Below are positions 1 to 7,172 of a DNA stretch of 64,000 nt, piece by piece. How positions within the stretch are numbered: the stretch's first letter is position 1; every line of letters begins with the position of its first letter. A program made the translations under genes and the position numbers. This stretch comes from Arthrobacter sp. zg-Y238 (GTDB lineage: Bacteria > Actinomycetota > Actinomycetes > Actinomycetales > Micrococcaceae), in contig NZ_JANFLU010000011.1 of NCBI RefSeq assembly GCF_024385525.1, positions 248,001 to 312,000 of the forward strand, given 5' to 3'. Below the pieces are notes generated by a model, which saw only the letters and a program-made list of their open reading frames with translations, had not been told where the DNA came from and ran no database searches.

Positions 1-951
1 TCCGGAAATGCGATCTTCGAGTATTACTGCGGAAAGTACATCGGCAAATTCTTCGGCGTTTTTGCGCCCTTGTTCTTCTTCTGCCTGTTCGCAGTCATGC
101 TCTCCGGAGCCGGTGCCGCGCTCAACGAGCACTTGGGCTGGAACAGTCAGGTGGGAATCCTTGCGATGGCAGTGGGAGTGCTGCTGACGGTGATGATGGG
201 GCTCGATGGCTTGGTGGGTATTGTGTCCAAACTCGGTCCCGTCATCGTCGTCCTGTGCCTCGTCGTCGGCATCATCGGTATCGCCAGGAGCCCGCAGGGC
301 ATCGCGGCATCAGCGGATACCCTCCCCACCATCGACGTTCTGCAGGCGGCCCCGAACTGGGCCGTGTCGGGATTCAACTACCCGGGACTGGGGATCCTGA
401 TGCTGGTCCCGTTCCTTGCAAGCCTGAGCACACGAGTCCGCAATGACAGGGAAGCCGTCACCGCCGGATTGGCCGGAGCCATGACGTTTGTGGCGGCGGT
501 TGCCGTGGTGGCTTTCGGGCTGCTGGCCAACATCGGTGACGTGTATGACAAGCAGATCCCCATGCTGTGGATTGCCAACCAGATTTTCTCCGGCGCGGGC
601 AGCATCTTCTCGGTGGTCCTCTTCGCAGGCATTTACACCACCGCCGTTCCGCTGCTGTGGACGGCGATCAACCGGATCGAGACAAACGACAGGAGCAACC
701 GGGCACAGATGTTCGCCCTCATTGCCACGGTGGCTGCGGTGCTGTTGGCGCAGGTGCCGTTCGCGGAACTCGTCAACGTCCTGTACCCGGTTGCCGGTTA
801 CCTGGCACTGGTTCTGGTGGGGTGCATTGTCATCCGGCAGATCCGAAACATCCGGGCCCGGAAGCGGGGGACCGACGTCTACGCCGTTGCGTTCGAGCGG
901 TTACCTGAGGAGAAGGCAGCTACTGCGCCCCAAGACGTCCAGGCCGGGTAG
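1..951 (+). CDS. YkvI-like integral membrane transporter, 5' end outside the window
   Basis: The reading frame is open from the first base, so the gene is cut by the window edge. A TTG at 70 is an internal codon rather than the start, because coding continues upstream with typical membrane-protein residues (FEYYCGKYIGKFF). About 317 residues are visible, with roughly eight hydrophobic segments, then a basic cytoplasmic tail after residue 275. The FEYYCGK motif and overall pattern resemble the YkvI family, which belongs to the APC-type permease superfamily and has no firmly known substrate. A GC-rich hairpin follows the stop. Membrane location is secure; the family call is from recall of motifs and the substrate is unknown. 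Confidence 0.7.
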   Translation, partial: SGNAIFEYYCGKYIGKFFGVFAPLFFFCLFAVMLSGAGAALNEHLGWNSQVGILAMAVGVLLTVMMGLDGLVGIVSKLGPVIVVLCLVVGIIGIARSPQGIAASADTLPTIDVLQAAPNWAVSGFNYPGLGILMLVPFLASLSTRVRNDREAVTAGLAGAMTFVAAVAVVAFGLLANIGDVYDKQIPMLWIANQIFSGAGSIFSVVLFAGIYTTAVPLLWTAINRIETNDRSNRAQMFALIATVAAVLLAQVPFAELVNVLYPVAGYLALVLVGCIVIRQIRNIRARKRGTDVYAVAFERLPEEKAATAPQDVQAG

Positions 952-987
952 CCCGGCGACCACAGGCGGCCACAGGCGACCACAGCC

Positions 988-1013
988 GGCCCCGGCAGCC
1001 CCACTCCGGGGCC
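988..1013 (+). terminator. GC-rich hairpin after the YkvI-like gene
   Basis: A perfect 8-bp stem (GGCCCCGG pairing with CCGGGGCC) with a 10-nt loop lies 36 bp after the stop at 951. It has no T-run, as is common for actinobacterial terminators, so termination is inferred from position and stem stability. Confidence 0.4.
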
Positions 1014-1109
1014 AAGCCGCAGTTTGCGATAAAGTCAGGGGCAGTCTCTTCACACAAATTGGACATAAGCAGGCACGAAAAAGACGTGTGAAACAACGAT
1101 GGGGGTTTC

Positions 1110-1604
1110 ATGACAACGCGATTCGGGAAGTCCGCCGGTGAACGGGCCACCTCAAAAGCAGTCGTCGCCGCCCTACAGCTGGGCGAGCACGTCACGTTCG
1201 ATGAACTGCTGGCCGCCGTGACCAAGACGCACGGAAAACCCATTGAACTGCGCGACATCGACTCCGCCGTGATTCCTTCCGTCACCGGTCTCTGGATCGA
1301 GAAGGACACGAAGTCGATCATCCTGCTGCCCTCCGGCGACAACCGGCTGCACCGCACCCACGCCGCCTGCCACGAGTTCGGACACATCCTCCTGCGCCAC
1401 CAAGGATGCGGCGGAGTGGAAACGGCCATGCCGTCCCTGTTCCAGCACGTCGGCAGCCGCCAGGGAATCCGCCGGATGCTGGCGCGGTCCCTGGCTTGGA
1501 ACGAAACCGAACGCGCCGCCGAGCAGGTGGCCTACCTCCTTTCGCTGGCCCTGCTGCCTCGGGAACGCGACAGCTCCAGCACCTTTGAACGGACCTTCCT
1601 GTGA
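1110..1604 (+). CDS. ImmA/IrrE-family metallo-endopeptidase
   Basis: A 164-residue protein with the zinc-protease motif HEFGH at residues 88-92, the hallmark of ImmA/IrrE (DUF955) peptidases. ImmA cleaves the repressor of ICEBs1, and IrrE cleaves the DdrO repressor in Deinococcus. A typical partner is therefore an XRE-type DNA-binding protein, and one is encoded three genes downstream (3146-3577). The stop overlaps the GTG start of the next gene by 4 bp, so the two are translationally coupled. No signal peptide or membrane segment is visible, so it should be cytoplasmic. No phage or ICE genes are nearby, which suggests a chromosomal signalling cassette. Family call is firm; the substrate is inferred. 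Confidence 0.85.
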   Translation: MTTRFGKSAGERATSKAVVAALQLGEHVTFDELLAAVTKTHGKPIELRDIDSAVIPSVTGLWIEKDTKSIILLPSGDNRLHRTHAACHEFGHILLRHQGCGGVETAMPSLFQHVGSRQGIRRMLARSLAWNETERAAEQVAYLLSLALLPRERDSSSTFERTFL

Positions 1605-2605
1605 TCACCCTGCAGATGATGCCGGCCGCCGCCCTCTGGACGCTGGTGATCATCCGGCTGGTGGGTCTGCGCTTCGGCTGGAAGCTTGGCATCCTGCCCG
1701 GCATGGCTGCGGTGGCCATCGGCGCCACCCTGAACATTGACCAGGTCTACCTGTACGTCGATTCCCTGCTGGGGGAGCGGAACCTGCTCAACCTGATCGT
1801 CCACCTGCTCATGGGTGCCGGAATGACGGAACTGTGCCGCCTGCTGCTCAAGGCCACCGGCAGAACGGACGACGACGGCGGGCGGCATGTGAAGGCACTG
1901 ATCGGCATGGGTGTTGTCCTGGCCGTCATTCAGACGACCCTGCTGCTGGTGTCCGATACCCCTGGCTCCGCCACCAACTTCACCGACACCTTCGCCTCCA
2001 TCCCCACGATTGCAGCGTACCAGGCGAGCTTCTTTGCCTGGATCGGCGTGGTGCTCGGCTATACCGGCGTCGAATGCCTGCGCCGGGACAAGAGCGGGGA
2101 ATCCCGGGAGTTCGGCGTCGGCCTGAGCATCCTCAGCGCCGGGTGCCTGGCCGGAGTCGGCGCCGTGTCCGTGAAAATGCTGCTCATCGGTCTGGAATTC
2201 GCCGGCGTGCAGGCGTCCTTCGGCCTCTACATCGGCTACCGCATCCTTATGGCGCTGACCATGTTCGGCTTCGCGGTCGGGTTCGCGGTGCCGTCCTACG
2301 CCCGCCTCAAAACCGCCGCCGCCGACCGCCGTCGTCGTGCCGAGGATCTGGACGCCCTGCGGCCGATCGTGCGCCGCCTGATGAAGACCTGCGAAGGCAC
2401 GCGGGCCCTGGAAGCGGCCAACGTATCCCTCAACGCCCGCACCTCCAAGACCCAGCTCTACCGCTGGTTCATCTTCATCGGCGACATCCGGGTCCTGGAA
2501 CCCGGGCTGCTGTCGCCGGAGGAGACCCGCATCATTGACGAGATAGGCACAAGAATTGAAGACAAGGGAACACCCGCCCGCCGCGCAGCTATCCTCGGCG
2601 GCTAG
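1601..2605 (+). CDS. DUF6545 / MAB_1171c-like polytopic membrane protein
   Basis: A 334-residue protein beginning with GTG inside the GTGA overlap with the ImmA gene. The first ~230 residues hold about seven or eight hydrophobic segments. The remaining ~100 residues are a charged cytoplasmic domain containing LYRWFIFIGDIRVLEP, which resembles the L-Y-R-x-x-I-x-I-x-D signature of actinobacterial MAB_1171c-type proteins (DUF6545). These are annotated as putative transporters but no transport activity is established. Its place between a repressor-cleaving type of protease and a regulator suggests a membrane sensor or signal transducer, which is inference. Its last 50 bp overlap the next gene. 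Confidence 0.65.
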   Translation: MITLQMMPAAALWTLVIIRLVGLRFGWKLGILPGMAAVAIGATLNIDQVYLYVDSLLGERNLLNLIVHLLMGAGMTELCRLLLKATGRTDDDGGRHVKALIGMGVVLAVIQTTLLLVSDTPGSATNFTDTFASIPTIAAYQASFFAWIGVVLGYTGVECLRRDKSGESREFGVGLSILSAGCLAGVGAVSVKMLLIGLEFAGVQASFGLYIGYRILMALTMFGFAVGFAVPSYARLKTAAADRRRRAEDLDALRPIVRRLMKTCEGTRALEAANVSLNARTSKTQLYRWFIFIGDIRVLEPGLLSPEETRIIDEIGTRIEDKGTPARRAAILGG

Positions 2606-3140
2606 CTGGTACTCCAAAATCCTGCCGCCGGCCCTGGTGCTGGCGGTCCTCATCATTGCTGCGGGGATCGAGGCGGGGCTGGGACCGGTGGGCGTGCTCC
2701 TGCTCCTGGCCGGCGTCGTCGTGGTGCCCGGGGCGATCTACAAGGGCACCAAGGGACTGTTCCGACGCCGCGGGATCCCTGACCGCTGGCGGGCCGCCCT
2801 GGTGGCTGCCCTGATGCTGGCCGGCGCAGTCGTCTGCTACCTCCTGCCCGTGGCCTCCCCGGTGCCGGAAACGGTGACCGGGCTGCTGCTCGGCAACCTG
2901 GGCCTCGTCTTCTTCCGGCGCTGGCTCAACGTTTCGGCGCACGTGTCCGTCCTGACCTTCGGCGTGCTCTGGGTAATCGCGACATACGGGGCGGGCTGGG
3001 CGTGGCTGTTGATACTATCGCCGTTGATGATCTTCAGCCGGGTGTCCCTCGGCGAACATACCCTGAGGGAAGCGCTGTCCGGCGCGGCCCTGGGACTGGC
3101 CACCTTCTGCTGTTTCCTCGCAGTTATGACATGGAGCTGA
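2556..3140 (+). CDS. PAP2-superfamily-like membrane protein
   Basis: A 194-residue protein with five or six hydrophobic segments. SRVSLGEHTLREALSG at residues 161-176 matches the third phosphatase signature (SR-x5-H-x3-D/E). NVSAHV at 125-130 sits where the PSGH motif is expected but lacks its Pro and Gly, and the first K-x6-RP motif is not clear. It may therefore be a degenerate lipid phosphatase or a non-catalytic relative. The TTG start at 2556 lies inside the preceding gene (50-bp overlap); a later start is possible because no strong ribosome binding site decides it. It is the third gene of the ImmA cassette. Confidence 0.6.
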   Translation: MKTREHPPAAQLSSAASWYSKILPPALVLAVLIIAAGIEAGLGPVGVLLLLAGVVVVPGAIYKGTKGLFRRRGIPDRWRAALVAALMLAGAVVCYLLPVASPVPETVTGLLLGNLGLVFFRRWLNVSAHVSVLTFGVLWVIATYGAGWAWLLILSPLMIFSRVSLGEHTLREALSGAALGLATFCCFLAVMTWS

Positions 3141-3145
3141 ACTAC

Positions 3146-3577
3146 GTGAATGATTTTGATCTTCCCCCGGAGCGTGCTGCGGGCATCCGACGAGCCGAAA
3201 CGCTTGCCCGGAAGATCAATCTCCTGCTGGACGTCATCATGTCCGACTCCGGCAAGCCCTTTGACTACCCGACAATTAGGGACGCCGCGCAGAAAGCCGG
3301 CTACTACCTCTCGCGCACCCGGTGGTCGCTGCTGAAATCCGGCAAGGAGCAGGTGGTTCCGGAGGAAGCCCTGCGCGCCATTGCCGCCGTCTTCGACGTC
3401 GACCCCGACTATCTGCTGCAGGAAGACGGAAACCTGCCTGAGCGGGTCGAGGCCGAGCTGGAGCTGCTCCGCAGCCTGCGCCGTGCCGAGGTGCGGAACT
3501 TTGCGGCCAGGGCACTGGGTCCGGTGGATCCGGAGGCCTTGAAGGCGATCGCGAAAATCCTGGACGAGGATCACTAG
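3146..3577 (+). CDS. EspR-like helix-turn-helix regulator
   Basis: A 143-residue protein. I chose the GTG at 3146 because GGAG lies 9 bp upstream; an in-frame ATG at 3131 is the alternative, and the frame extends further upstream without support. An XRE-type HTH spans about residues 40-90 (PTIRDAAQKAGYYLSRTRWSLLKSGKEQ...ALRAIAAVFDVDPDYL). A C-terminal helical part carries a repeated LRR...VRNFAARALG...EALKAIAKIL pattern. This layout resembles mycobacterial EspR, a nucleoid-associated activator with an HTH and a C-terminal dimerisation domain. As the last gene of the cassette it is the best candidate substrate for the ImmA-like protease and may bind the palindrome at 3671-3690. Both roles are inferred. 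Confidence 0.7.
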   Translation: MNDFDLPPERAAGIRRAETLARKINLLLDVIMSDSGKPFDYPTIRDAAQKAGYYLSRTRWSLLKSGKEQVVPEEALRAIAAVFDVDPDYLLQEDGNLPERVEAELELLRSLRRAEVRNFAARALGPVDPEALKAIAKILDEDH

Positions 3578-3670
3578 CCCTCCGCCTCCCGTCCCGGGGC
3601 CTTCTGCGGCCTGCGCGACGTCGAGTAAAACTTTGACCCGGACACCGAGCGGTGGTAGCGTCTCACCCAT

Positions 3671-3690
3671 GTCTCACACATGTGTGAGAC
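3671..3690. promoter_or_regulatory. Perfect 20-bp palindrome, probable operator
   Basis: GTCTCACACATGTGTGAGAC is a perfect two-fold palindrome, 93 bp past the stop of the EspR-like regulator and just upstream of a TTGAAA hexamer. A partial direct copy of one arm (GTCTCACCCAT) ends immediately upstream. Perfect dyads of this size are typical binding sites for dimeric regulators. The binder may be the adjacent HTH protein or a lactate-responsive regulator of lldD; the sequence does not decide. Confidence 0.6.
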
Positions 3691-3886
3691 GAGTTTGAAA
3701 AGTTCATAAACGGCGGACAGAGCGATCCTGAGCCCGATGGGGAATCTTCGTGTATTTGTGGCTGGGGGGTCACTGCCGAAGTCTCCACCTCGAAGGCCTA
3801 CAGGCCTCCGTTCCCGTTTGTCGGCGCGTTTCGGCGCGCTGTATCTGTAGCATCCGCTGCCTGTGGGGGGTCGGTGGAAGGCTGCA

Positions 3887-3921
3887 AGCGAAGCCAGCGG
3901 ATATCCTCCGCTGGCTTCGCT
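3887..3921 (+). terminator. Strong intrinsic terminator hairpin
   Basis: A 15-bp perfect stem (3887-3901 with 3907-3921) and a 5-nt loop, followed by GTTTAA, lie about 105 bp before lldD. It would end a transcript coming from the upstream cassette or from a small RNA in this gap, which implies that lldD has its own promoter. Confidence 0.75.
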
Positions 3922-4025
3922 GTTTAACGAAAAGGCATTGAGGCTGCGCGTAACGATCGGTCAACTCCTGCTCCATGGCGGTTCCGCCGTCTTAGACTGG
4001 CGCCAAGCCGAGTCAGAAAGCAGCC

Positions 4026-5234
4026 ATGAAGCGCCGAATTCCCCAGTACTCCGAACTCCGCGATCTCGTCCAGTTCAAGTCCCTCGACCTGGACCGCCGC
4101 CGTGCCCGCCTGGCCAAGGCCACCAACATCTGGGAACTGAGGGACATCGCGAAGCGGCGGATCCCGGCCGCAGCCTTCGACTACGTGGACGGCGGCTCAT
4201 TCGGGGAGCACGCGCTCCAGCGCAACCGCGAGGCCTTCAACAACATCGAATTCGTGCCGCACGTGCTGCGCGATGTGACCAGCGTGGACCTGAGCACCAA
4301 GATCGCCGGCACCGAGTCGGCCCTGCCCGTCGGCATCGGACCCACCGGGCTGACAAGGCTGATGCACACCGAAGGGGAGGTGGGCGGCGCGCAGGCCGCG
4401 GCCGCCTTCGGGGTGCCCTTCTCGCTCTCCACGATGGGCACCGCCTCCATCGAGGAACTGGCCGCAACGGTGCCCGACGCCGCCAAATGGTTCCAGCTCT
4501 ACCTCTGGAAAGACCGCGAACGTTCGCGTGAACTGGTGCAGCGGGCCGCGGCGGCGGGGTACGGCGCGCTGATCGTCACGGTGGACACCCCGGTGGCCGG
4601 CGCCAGGCTCCGCGACACCCGCAACGGCATGACGATGCCGCCCACCCTGACCGCCAAAACCATTCTGGACGCCTCCTACCGGCCCGAGTGGTGGTTCAAC
4701 TTCCTCACCACCAAACCGCTGGGCTTCGCCAACTTCGAGGGTGAACGGGTCTCCCTGGCCGAAACCGTGAACACCATGTTCGAACCCTCGCTGAACCTCG
4801 CCGACTTGGACTGGCTGCGCGAGACCTGGCCGGGCAAGCTCATCGTCAAGGGCATCCAAACGCCCGACGACGCCGTCGAGGTCCTGGCCCGCGGTGCGGA
4901 CGCCCTGGTGGTCTCCAACCACGGCGGAAGACAGCTGGACCGTGCCCCCGTGCCGCTGCGGATCCTGCCGTCCATCCGGGCCGCCGTCGGACCCGAAGCG
5001 GAGATCATCCTGGACTCGGGCATCATGTCCGGCGGCGATATCGTGGCGGCGCTTGCTGCCGGCGCGGACTTCACGCTGATCGGCCGGGCCTACCTGTACG
5101 GGCTGATGGCCGGCGGCCGGCAGGGCGCCGAACGCACCCTGGAGCTGCTGCGGACCGAAATGACCCTGGTGATGCAGCTGCTCGGCGTCACGAGCGTGGC
5201 CGAGCTGCGTCCGGAGCATATCCGCAGCGTGTGA
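4026..5234 (+). CDS. lldD: FMN-dependent alpha-hydroxy-acid (L-lactate) dehydrogenase
   Basis: A 402-residue TIM-barrel flavoenzyme. The signature SNHGGRQLD at 297-305 contains the catalytic His (299) and Arg (302). FQLYLWKDR, TVDTPVAGARLRD and the FMN phosphate-binding IILDSGIMSGGDI follow the family order. The length fits L-lactate dehydrogenase (LldD), which oxidises lactate to pyruvate and passes electrons to the quinone pool at the membrane. Glycolate, mandelate or other hydroxy acids cannot be excluded from sequence alone. It is monocistronic, flanked by a terminator upstream and a convergent MFS gene downstream; no lactate permease is beside it. Confidence 0.85.
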   Translation: MKRRIPQYSELRDLVQFKSLDLDRRRARLAKATNIWELRDIAKRRIPAAAFDYVDGGSFGEHALQRNREAFNNIEFVPHVLRDVTSVDLSTKIAGTESALPVGIGPTGLTRLMHTEGEVGGAQAAAAFGVPFSLSTMGTASIEELAATVPDAAKWFQLYLWKDRERSRELVQRAAAAGYGALIVTVDTPVAGARLRDTRNGMTMPPTLTAKTILDASYRPEWWFNFLTTKPLGFANFEGERVSLAETVNTMFEPSLNLADLDWLRETWPGKLIVKGIQTPDDAVEVLARGADALVVSNHGGRQLDRAPVPLRILPSIRAAVGPEAEIILDSGIMSGGDIVAALAAGADFTLIGRAYLYGLMAGGRQGAERTLELLRTEMTLVMQLLGVTSVAELRPEHIRSV

Positions 5235-5289
5235 CCCGCAGGGCTCGCTCGCCGCCGGGAATTGCAATCCGCGGGCGCCGGTCCACCGG

Positions 5290-6555
5290 TCAGGACGCGG
5301 CGTCGGAGGGGGCAGCCCGGAGTCCGTCGTCTTCCGGCGTGTGGTGGTTTCGGGTGCGGGCAATGGCCCCGGCAGCGCTGACGCCGCACGCCCCTGCGGC
5401 AACGGCAAAGGCCAGCCCGAAATCGGACGCTTCGATGAGGGCACCGGTCAGCGCTGCCCCGGCGGCCTGCCCCAGAATGAGGCTGATGAAGAGGGCCGAC
5501 GTGCCGGCTGCACTACTGCTCGCCGTGGCGGTGGCCCAGATGATGAGGACCGACGTCGCGGCGGTGTAGGCCAGTCCGAACAGTGCAGCCGCGGCGAAGG
5601 AGATTCCGGTACTTCCCGGTGCGAGGGCCATACCCGCCGTGGCCGCTGCGGTGGCCAGTACCGTGACCGGCCAGGTGAGGCGGATCGAGTGCCGGGCCAG
5701 CCAGGGGGCGGTCAGCACTGCGGCCGCGCCGCCGACGCCAAGGGCAATCCAGGCTCCGGCGGACAGCGCGACGGGCATGCCGCCCTGATCCTCGAGCAGG
5801 GTGCGTCCGTACACCCAGACCGCGGCGCAGCCGATGCCGTAAATGAACGCCGCAGTGAGCGGCCATTTCAACGCGCCCAGACCGAGCCCCCGCTGCTGGC
5901 TTCCGCCGCGCTGCCGCTGCCCGGCGTCGTCGTTCCCGTTTGCACCTTCTGCATCGTCTTGAAGACCCGCATTCCCGCGGTCCCGCGAGACGTCCCCAAG
6001 CAGCACCCCGATCATCCCCGCCACTGCGATCACCGCGATCAGCACCCACGCCAGCCGCCATGCGGGCCCCAGCAGCAGTGCGAGCAGCCCGGCTGCGACC
6101 ACGCCGAAGCCGGTTCCGGAGTTCACCACCGACTGTCGCTTCGCCGCGGAGAACGGCTTCGTGTTGCGCTGCACCAGTTCCACCAGGGCAGGGGAGGCGA
6201 ACCCGGCACCCATCCCGGCCAGCAGCACGGCCGCGGCAAAGAACCCCGTGGACGAAGCCGCCGCGATACCGGCCGAACCGAGTGCCGCCGTCGACCCCGC
6301 CAGAATGGTCATCAGCCGCGGATGCCGCGGCGCGTACGCGAACCCCAGCCCGGCGGAGACGCAGTAGATCACCGAGGCGCCGGAGGAGAGCAGCCCGCCG
6401 ACGGCAGGGGTCAGTTCGAAGGAGGCGGAGAAGGCCGGCAGGAACAGGCCGTAGCCCAGCCGTGCCAGTCCGTAGGTCGCGGCGATAAGTGTCACCGCGG
6501 CGACCGCGAAGAGCGGGCCGGCGGTCGGAACAGAAGGCTGTAACGGTCGTTTCAT
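5290..6555 (-). CDS. MFS transporter, probable TetR-controlled exporter
   Basis: About 421 residues from the ATG at 6555; a 16-residue upstream extension would run into the divergent promoter and is rejected. There are about 12 hydrophobic segments in two halves, joined by a long hydrophilic, Gly/Asn/Gln/Arg-rich central loop (around residues 190-230). The pattern is that of major facilitator proteins such as drug or metabolite efflux pumps. It is transcribed divergently from a TetR-family gene with only 26 bp between starts, so the TetR protein very likely represses it. The substrate is unknown. Confidence 0.8.
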   Translation of the reverse strand: MKRPLQPSVPTAGPLFAVAAVTLIAATYGLARLGYGLFLPAFSASFELTPAVGGLLSSGASVIYCVSAGLGFAYAPRHPRLMTILAGSTAALGSAGIAAASSTGFFAAAVLLAGMGAGFASPALVELVQRNTKPFSAAKRQSVVNSGTGFGVVAAGLLALLLGPAWRLAWVLIAVIAVAGMIGVLLGDVSRDRGNAGLQDDAEGANGNDDAGQRQRGGSQQRGLGLGALKWPLTAAFIYGIGCAAVWVYGRTLLEDQGGMPVALSAGAWIALGVGGAAAVLTAPWLARHSIRLTWPVTVLATAAATAGMALAPGSTGISFAAAALFGLAYTAATSVLIIWATATASSSAAGTSALFISLILGQAAGAALTGALIEASDFGLAFAVAAGACGVSAAGAIARTRNHHTPEDDGLRAAPSDAAS

Positions 6556-6558
6556 TGA

Positions 6559-6568
6559 AACGTACGTT
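6559..6568. promoter_or_regulatory. Palindrome in the MFS/TetR divergent gap, likely TetR operator
   Basis: AACGTACGTT is a perfect 10-bp palindrome centred in the 26 bp between the two start codons. A TetR dimer bound here would cover both starts or promoters and control both genes, the usual autoregulatory arrangement. Confidence 0.6.
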
Positions 6569-6581
6569 ATATGCTGTGCGC

Positions 6582-7172
6582 ATGGTTGGACAACCCAGTG
6601 CACGAAACCGGCTGCTCGACGCCGCCGAGGAACTCGCCTTCACGCAGGGTGTCGCGGCGACGCCCGTGGACCGGATCCTGCAGCGCGCCAACGTTGCCCC
6701 GGCGACGCTGTACGCGCATTTCGGCAACAAGGAGGGCCTAATCGCGGAGGCCCTGCGCCGCCGGCTGCAGAACTGGGACGCGGCCTGGCAGCGGGAAATC
6801 GACGCCGCCGCCACGGACCGGGACCGGCTCCTGGCGGTCTTTCCCGCCCTCACGAGCTACCGGTCCGGCACGTCTGCCGCGCGCTGGTGTGCCGCGCTCG
6901 GCGTCGCGGCCGAAACCGTCGACCCGGGCCAGCAGCTCGCCGAAACCCTGTCGCAGGATACGCAGCTGCTCACCGACCGCTTCCGCGAACTGGCTGTCCC
7001 CGTTGTCGGCGCGGACGACGCCGACGCGCTGGCGGCCCACCTGCTGCTGATCTTCACCGGCGTACTGGGCATGCTGCTCCGCGGTTCCTCGCCGGAAGAA
7101 GCGGCGGCCACTGGCCGTGCCACCGCCGGGTTCGTTATCGACGGGTTCGGCTCGTCCCGCTCGGCCGGGTAG
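6582..7172 (+). CDS. TetR/AcrR-family transcriptional regulator
   Basis: 196 residues from the ATG at 6582; upstream in-frame codons overlap the divergent MFS gene and are rejected. The N-terminal HTH is clear: RNRLLDAAEELAFTQGV followed by TPVDRILQRANVAPATLYAHFGNKEGLIAEAL (about residues 7-55). The C-terminal ligand-binding domain is helical and not assignable to a ligand. It most likely represses itself and the divergent MFS gene through the palindrome between them. The gene has little or no leader, so translation may be leaderless. Confidence 0.85.
   Translation: MVGQPSARNRLLDAAEELAFTQGVAATPVDRILQRANVAPATLYAHFGNKEGLIAEALRRRLQNWDAAWQREIDAAATDRDRLLAVFPALTSYRSGTSAARWCAALGVAAETVDPGQQLAETLSQDTQLLTDRFRELAVPVVGADDADALAAHLLLIFTGVLGMLLRGSSPEEAAATGRATAGFVIDGFGSSRSAG

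Follow-up and report, generated by a model that had tools for sequence, protein, structure and literature searches.

A conserved protease, membrane protein and regulator cassette of Arthrobacter and the predicted small RNA behind it

What might an ImmA/IrrE-type protease do in one compact row with a membrane protein, a PAP2-like protein and an EspR-like regulator, and what does the palindrome behind this row serve? The question is raised by a four-gene cassette of Arthrobacter sp. zg-Y238, found in a stretch of 64,000 nucleotides (contig NZ_JANFLU010000011.1, positions 248,001-312,000) to which we refer as the window. Our comparisons suggest that the cassette is probably a signalling module, with a small RNA encoded just behind the palindrome as its output (Table 1); its genes, the operator-like site and the RNA locus are well supported by comparative sequence evidence. 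ImmA-type proteases are known as agents of regulated proteolysis in mobile elements. In the present cassette such a core is linked with a small-RNA locus, a membrane protein resembling a receptor, and a lipid/ester enzyme that can be exchanged, and no description of either the RNA or the cassette was found in the open-licence papers of PubMed Central (PMC).

A conserved cassette, its operator-like site and the RNA behind it

The four genes are overlapping + strand open reading frames (ORFs), the last of which begins at 3131 or 3146, and a GTGA overlap joins genes 1 and 2; the genes, this overlap and the perfect 20-bp dyad are all where a preliminary description of the locus had placed them. 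Among the 29 Arthrobacter genomes that form our genus comparison set, close relatives of gene 2 occur in 17; at E<=0.001 the same query finds some match in 22 of the 29, its weaker hits falling on other membrane proteins. All four genes stand in the same order at each of the 17 close loci, the protease being read as split in two at one of them. The co-occurrence of the four families, which the preliminary description had proposed to check, is thus that of a conserved unit within the genus, with the reservation that the PAP2 gene is not fixed and is replaced elsewhere by a hydrolase or by no third gene at all. We refer to operons with a PAP2-like third gene as type A (19 loci, 17 of them within the genus and two on plasmids) and to those with an alpha/beta hydrolase in its place as type B. 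The flanks of the 19 type A loci fall into 13 upstream and 9 downstream groups, numbers that rest on a strict nucleotide threshold and are perhaps too high, which indicates that the unit has moved, or that the DNA around it has been rearranged or has diverged too far for the threshold.

Table 1. Features of the cassette and of the RNA locus behind it, in window coordinates
Feature	Position	Strand	Remarks
ImmA/IrrE-type (M78-like) zinc-protease gene (gene 1)	1110..1604	+	HEFGH ... ERAAEQVA
MAB_1171c-like membrane protein, predicted seven-transmembrane (7TM) bundle and C-terminal helical domain (gene 2)	1601..2605	+	profile, model
PAP2-fold membrane protein (gene 3), TTG start uncertain	2556..3140	+	S127, H129, S161, R162, H168 kept
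EspR-like helix-turn-helix (HTH) regulator (gene 4), GTG start preferred	3146..3577	+	EspR profile; ATG 3131 not conserved
Predicted sigma-70 promoter, TTGACC-17-TAGCGT	3633..3661	+	same place in relatives
Further half-site, TCACCCATG	3663-3671		
Operator-like dyad, GTCTCACACATGTGTGAGAC	3671..3690	.	perfect 20-bp dyad
Predicted small RNA	3668..3925	+	5' end inferred from promoter
RNA hairpin 1, GTGGC-TGGGGG-GTCAC	3758..3773	+	
RNA hairpin 2 (HP2), CATCCGCTGCCTGTGGGGGGTCGGTGGA region	3851..3876	+	common to core RNA
Terminator-like stem, GCGAAGCCAGCGGA/TCCGCTGGCTTCGC, and short T tract	3888..3925	+	

The dyad is present behind the regulator at all 17 type A loci of the genus and also at plasmid locus L047. 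A search for its core, TCACACATGTGTGA, finds a single site in the window at <=2 mismatches (0.06 expected), and the full 20-mer is unique in the whole genome at <=3 mismatches. Palindromes with an ACATGT core follow the regulator in 17/17 type A loci, precede the protease in 9/9 type B loci and stand beside 18 of 72 other regulator rows (16 loci), against a background mean of <=0.05 per group in 20 mononucleotide shuffles; identical loci were merged before these counts, and before those of TGGGGG and of the core membrane gene given below. By its geometry, the dyad looks like the operator of the regulator, as the preliminary description had supposed, and it adjoins a promoter-like sequence in the manner of an ImmA/ImmR system. 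The spacer of this promoter-like sequence is 17 bp in 16 of the 17 type A loci and 18 bp in one (as scored), and the end of the -10 element is 20 bp away from the dyad centre in all but one of them; that one has 19 bp, as do two plasmid copies. Neither this sequence nor the structured RNA downstream of the dyad, which is the likely output, had been noticed before.

No conserved protein gene lies behind the dyad in type A loci. Positions 3668-3925 fold at -128.6 kcal/mol, compared with a mean of -95.6 for shuffled sequences (z -6.6; 0/200 shuffles as stable). An alignment of 17 loci reveals a conserved 3' half, consisting of HP2 and the terminator stem, and a variable 5' half in which hairpin 1 is present at 14 loci. 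In the 3' half, 95% of the cells are paired and 5 of 20 pairs have changed on both sides; its covariation score exceeds those of 500/500 shuffles, which related sequences can do without structure, and those of all six slid versions, every one of which scores lower. Hairpin 1 is 94.5% paired and likewise scores above 500/500 shuffles. The motif TGGGGG is found within 320 nt on the RNA side in 17/17 type A loci, 9/9 type B loci and 6/11 other four-gene rows, its background being 0.19 per 640 nt. Rfam returned no match over the type A RNA, the best hit in window positions 1-7000 being unrelated (E 0.71). A small protein read from a GTG inside the RNA (3750-3941) was considered and discarded, the short forms at L041, L042 and L046 being devoid of that part.

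A relative of the RNA at a conserved core locus

A model built on HP2 and the terminator of the type A RNA matches 29/29 genomes of the genus. The places found are the 17 cassettes and one conserved core locus per genome (C1:80431-80510 in zg-Y238 itself), plus one further place in genome G023 that is probably a partial cassette, read as L073; many of the weak matches (E 1e-6 or worse) are to the reverse strand of these hairpins. The core RNA is located ~50 bp behind a membrane-protein ORF which, at 20/20 loci read, is recognised by the gene 2 profile (E 1e-18 to 3e-6). This ORF itself lies behind an HTH gene, which in zg-Y238 encodes ~241 aa and, as we read the locus, is convergent to ptsH/ptsI. 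The 3' half of the cassette RNA thus appears to be a relative of the core RNA, and it may represent a host RNA captured by a mobile unit or the product of gene conversion between copies.

Across our family set (295 Micrococcaceae genomes, 32 genera), the core HTH gene is present in 134 genomes and 15 genera, and 52 genomes from three genera have a match to a model that covers the core RNA and its promoter region. In every one of the 52, the core HTH gene precedes the match by 0.7-1.0 kb and has the same orientation, as judged by comparing the two lists by eye. Twenty further HTH loci were read, 19 without and one with a match to the core RNA model: a GGGGG run lies within 260 nt behind the membrane gene at 15 of them, mostly before a terminator-like stem and in the form TTGGGGGG at 12 of these 15, and none was seen at the other five, one of which is without a membrane gene that could be found. 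The 12 R1 places recovered outside the genus at the family level comprise nine core loci (L167-L173, L177, L178) and three others (L174-L176). One pair of the core RNA has changed on both sides, which 38/500 shuffles also reach; the test is not a strong one because the core RNA varies little. In the four core loci scanned with Rfam, tRNAs alone passed, and none of the matches listed covers the core RNA.

Core loci L147-L173, L177, L178 and L201-L220 share a conserved promoter region, TTCACA...CATGA...TGTG, whose half-sites resemble the cassette operator.

The protein parts and their variants

The ImmA/IrrE (M78) signature consists of HExxH plus a downstream E as third ligand. The window protease displays both, and its zinc-site residues H88, E89, H92 and E138 are invariant in all 26 aligned sequences, its own included. 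It scores below the gathering score of Pfam PF06114 (14 bits vs 22), and five of the 26 members have an M78/ImmA Pfam match at E<=0.01. The protein profiles were built without L041 P0001 and L035 P0001/P0002 (frame breaks, genome G022), the regulator alignment A5 covers 25 of 31 regulators, and alignment A12 omits L148, L158 and L166.

For gene 2, the earlier label of DUF6545 has to be abandoned: PF20182 is without a match in the genome, and gene 2 matches no Pfam family. Its product is, by sequence, a relative of the NCBIfam family MAB_1171c (NF042915; 63.8 bits, E 1.4e-17) that scores under the family cut-off of 100, and this family is matched at E<=0.01 by 34/34 aligned gene 2 members. The structure model (pLDDT 88.8) consists of a seven-helix bundle plus a C-terminal helical part. 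Compared with 7TM receptors, it gives a best Foldseek E of 0.033 and structural matches of Z up to 14.8 (235 residues, 4.4 A), scores that helical bundles reach by chance; with this reservation, the model suggests an arrangement like that of a G protein-coupled receptor. MAB_1171c is described in NF042915 as a putative transporter, whereas the context and model of gene 2 are suggestive of a receptor. A knock-out of MAB_1171c is reported to lower biofilm by ~50% (PMC8707978).

The PAP2-like identity of gene 3, proposed in the preliminary description, holds by fold. Ranks 1-20 among its structural matches are all PAP2-type enzymes (top Z 13.5, 136 residues, 3.5 A), the acid phosphatases among them being of this class, and rank 21 is unrelated (Z 7.3); the first Foldseek match is 5jki (E 0.7). 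By sequence, the window protein reaches 10 bits, and 11/21 aligned members give a PAP2 match. The superfamily motifs C2 and C3 read PSGH and SRxxxxxHxxxD. Those of gene 3 are VSAH and SRxxxxxHxxxE, with SGH in 3/21 members, and the first motif was not identified. Outside the genus, we examined 60 family loci (out of ~100 places, mostly the best-scoring one per genome) that hold 62 regulator places, L108 and L111 each being counted twice. Protease and membrane gene are present at 30 of these, and the third gene is PAP2-like at 6, a hydrolase at 6 and other or unassigned at 7, with no room for one at 11. This variation leaves the protease, the membrane protein and the regulator as the constant part and makes the third gene the exchangeable one. 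Plasmid 1 of Arthrobacter sp. FB24 (L051) has an annotated MpaB-family oxygenase gene directly before its protease-membrane-regulator set, perhaps another exchangeable enzyme.

The regulator is homologous to EspR of Mycobacterium tuberculosis (PDB 3r1f, 3qf3) by profile, as had been proposed (3r1f: E 5.1e-12, positions 13-122 of 142). It probably starts at GTG 3146, since a stop lies just behind ATG 3131 in 3/19 type A copies (L045, L060, L061) and since the reads of L057 and L043 begin at the later of the two starts. Its family occurs in 84/295 Micrococcaceae genomes, in 39 of 347 genomes drawn from the order and on 57 plasmid records; phage records contain no match.

Type B operons (protease, membrane protein, alpha/beta hydrolase, regulator) occur in nine of the 29 genus genomes and are distant from type A, with 23-31% identity in genes 1 and 2 and 47-50% in the regulator. 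The hydrolase is assigned by Pfam, above the cut-off. A separate UGGGGG RNA accompanies the operator of type B operons and is described here on its presumed transcribed strand: the nine RNAs form a long hairpin with an invariant segment, GTTGGGGGAC, and compensatory changes in 9/31 predicted pairs. A model of this RNA recovers it in each of the nine genomes that carry the operon and in none of the 20 that lack it; the remaining matches are weak, one being at another place in G023 and three on the opposite strand.

Proposed mechanism and rival explanations

Repression, cleavage, sensing and the expression and function of the RNA are what we infer in the scheme that follows, in which the order of receptor, protease and repressor is modelled on ImmA/ImmR (PMC6540685). 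At rest, the EspR-like protein would be bound to its ACATGT-core operator, covering the start of the predicted promoter and blocking an RNA of ~260 nt. The 7TM receptor-like protein would sense an envelope or lipid cue, perhaps one made or removed by the PAP2 enzyme (by the alpha/beta hydrolase in sister modules), and would thereby let the ImmA-type protease inactivate the repressor. The RNA would then be made, its hairpins presenting UGGGGG segments that could bind a protein or target C-rich stretches of mRNAs in trans. The relation of its 3' half to the core RNA, itself beside a gene 2-like gene, would make the cassette a second entry into a host RNA regulon. More tentatively, we suggest that such a Micrococcaceae regulon may comprise the core HTH-7TM-small RNA locus (UGGGGG) and mobile cassettes from which related RNAs are made in response to cues of their own. 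If correct, this would be a bacterial pathway from 7TM receptor through protease and repressor to small RNA, in which cassettes swap sensor enzyme and operator yet converge on one RNA element and feed a host RNA circuit. It would also give MAB_1171c-like proteins a testable role as receptors, and Micrococcaceae genetics a small-RNA family.

Several observations weigh against this scheme, which is drawn throughout from comparative sequence evidence. The window promoter has 8/12 consensus matches, which is under the threshold, and a promoter scan reports none; nor does a terminator scan asking for >=5 T report one in the window copy, where the T run is absent. Further pair types are not above shuffles (274/500 for HP2 and the terminator, 465/500 for hairpin 1), and the pairs of hairpin 1 changed on both sides (2/5) are reached by 137/500 shuffles. 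The 12-nt complement of the G-loop, CCCCCCACAGGC, has 19 matches at <=1 mismatch in the genome of zg-Y238, two of which are the RNAs themselves, compared with 35 for the reversed control. The core HTH protein has no detectable relation to the EspR-like regulator. At 32 of the 62 regulator places outside the genus, no protease/membrane pair is in reach, a few of the contigs ending nearby. Protease and membrane rows without PAP2 carry TGGGGG near background there (6/26), as do solitary regulators (3/35). The RNA is therefore not a universal partner of the regulator, and the same regulators may serve other promoters outside the genus, perhaps those of transfer genes when they are on plasmids.

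A rival explanation that we consider unlikely is that the cassette is a control module of mobile elements, governing plasmid conjugation or maintenance genes as ImmA/ImmR does for ICEBs1, with chromosomal copies domesticated or stray and the RNA a by-product. Close relatives of the cassette do reside on Paenarthrobacter and Arthrobacter plasmids, and its flanks vary among genomes. Twenty of the 57 plasmid records with regulator relatives are conjugative and 12 mobilizable, and 11 of the 14 records that carry the membrane protein are conjugative. The annotated genes around the module include ParA on L047, L048, L049 and L051, one for conjugal transfer on L047, and CHAP, M23 or transglycosylase genes on L048-L051; on L047 and, more weakly, on L048, operator-like sites stand at both ends of the module, ahead of the protease gene and after the regulator. 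Yet the other 25 plasmids, including that of L047, are typed as non-mobilizable, the RNA element is kept in all 17 type A loci of the genus, and its 3' half is akin to the chromosomal core RNA. That the cassette is a toxin-antitoxin (TA) or defence-linked pair is improbable. A COG2856 protease with an Xre-type partner has been predicted to be TA-like (PMC2701414), and PADLOC gives weak profile matches to capP (E 9.7e-5) and capH (E 0.003), which would fit a CapP/CapH-like defence control. The conserved neighbour is an RNA, however, the regulator is without a match in phage records, and inspection by eye of the ORFs in 1-7000, made with no family search of the flanking genes, disclosed no defence or toxin gene, CBASS included.

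An attenuator or leader of the next gene (4026-5234), in place of a free RNA, is about as improbable: the 5' arm of HP2 could, as read from the window sequence, also pair with the 5' arm of the terminator, but this alternative pairing is broken in L043 and the downstream flanks differ (the nine groups given above, perhaps too many), on which grounds we rejected this reading. Least probable of all is an EspR-like nucleoid-associated global regulator with an accessory protease, which the homology to EspR could suggest and which resembles the global activator of the preliminary description. EspR has at least 165 bound loci, whereas one full operator was found in the genome of zg-Y238 at <=3 mismatches (half-sites and weaker sites were not searched), and the motifs beside regulator relatives are ACATGT-core palindromes unlike the EspR inverted repeat quoted in the same source (PMC3315491). 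With one full operator in the genome, a dedicated repressor is more likely than a nucleoid protein.

The proposed cascade, with an RNA as its output, differs from known systems in several respects. 6C RNA (RF01066), which like Ms1 RNA is actinobacterial, has C-rich loops, the mirror of the G-rich ones here. No RF01066 match at E<=10 was obtained in window positions 1-7000, and no 6C match was found in the genome (150/1056 candidates scored), so a 6C sponge was dropped as a candidate. RsmY and RsmZ expose GGA motifs. In Gac/Rsm, the 7TMR-type sensor LadS acts on GacS and on these small RNAs (PMC7695008), a likeness in membrane input and RNA output; the cassette is without a two-component relay, and the parts are unrelated. 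Ms1, for its part, is tied to a HAD-hydrolase gene (PMC9130861). The proposed order has its parallel in ICEBs1, where an M78-type protease also stands beside an HTH repressor whose cleavage would free a promoter. There, the input is RapI-PhrI (PMC6540685); that of the cassette looks like a 7TM membrane protein and an enzyme, its regulator is EspR-like, and its promoter leads into an RNA and not into excision or transfer genes.

Three minor observations may be added. On L048, a hairpin with TTTGGGGGA in its loop lies behind the operator-like site. The protease gene is apparently frame-broken in both operon types of genome G022 (L041, L035), through sequencing error or decay. Finally, a possible 5'-leader hairpin, TTCACA...TGTGAA, lies at window positions 1050-1109 just upstream of the ribosome-binding site of gene 1, and its arms appear by eye, with no formal count, to co-vary in several relatives.

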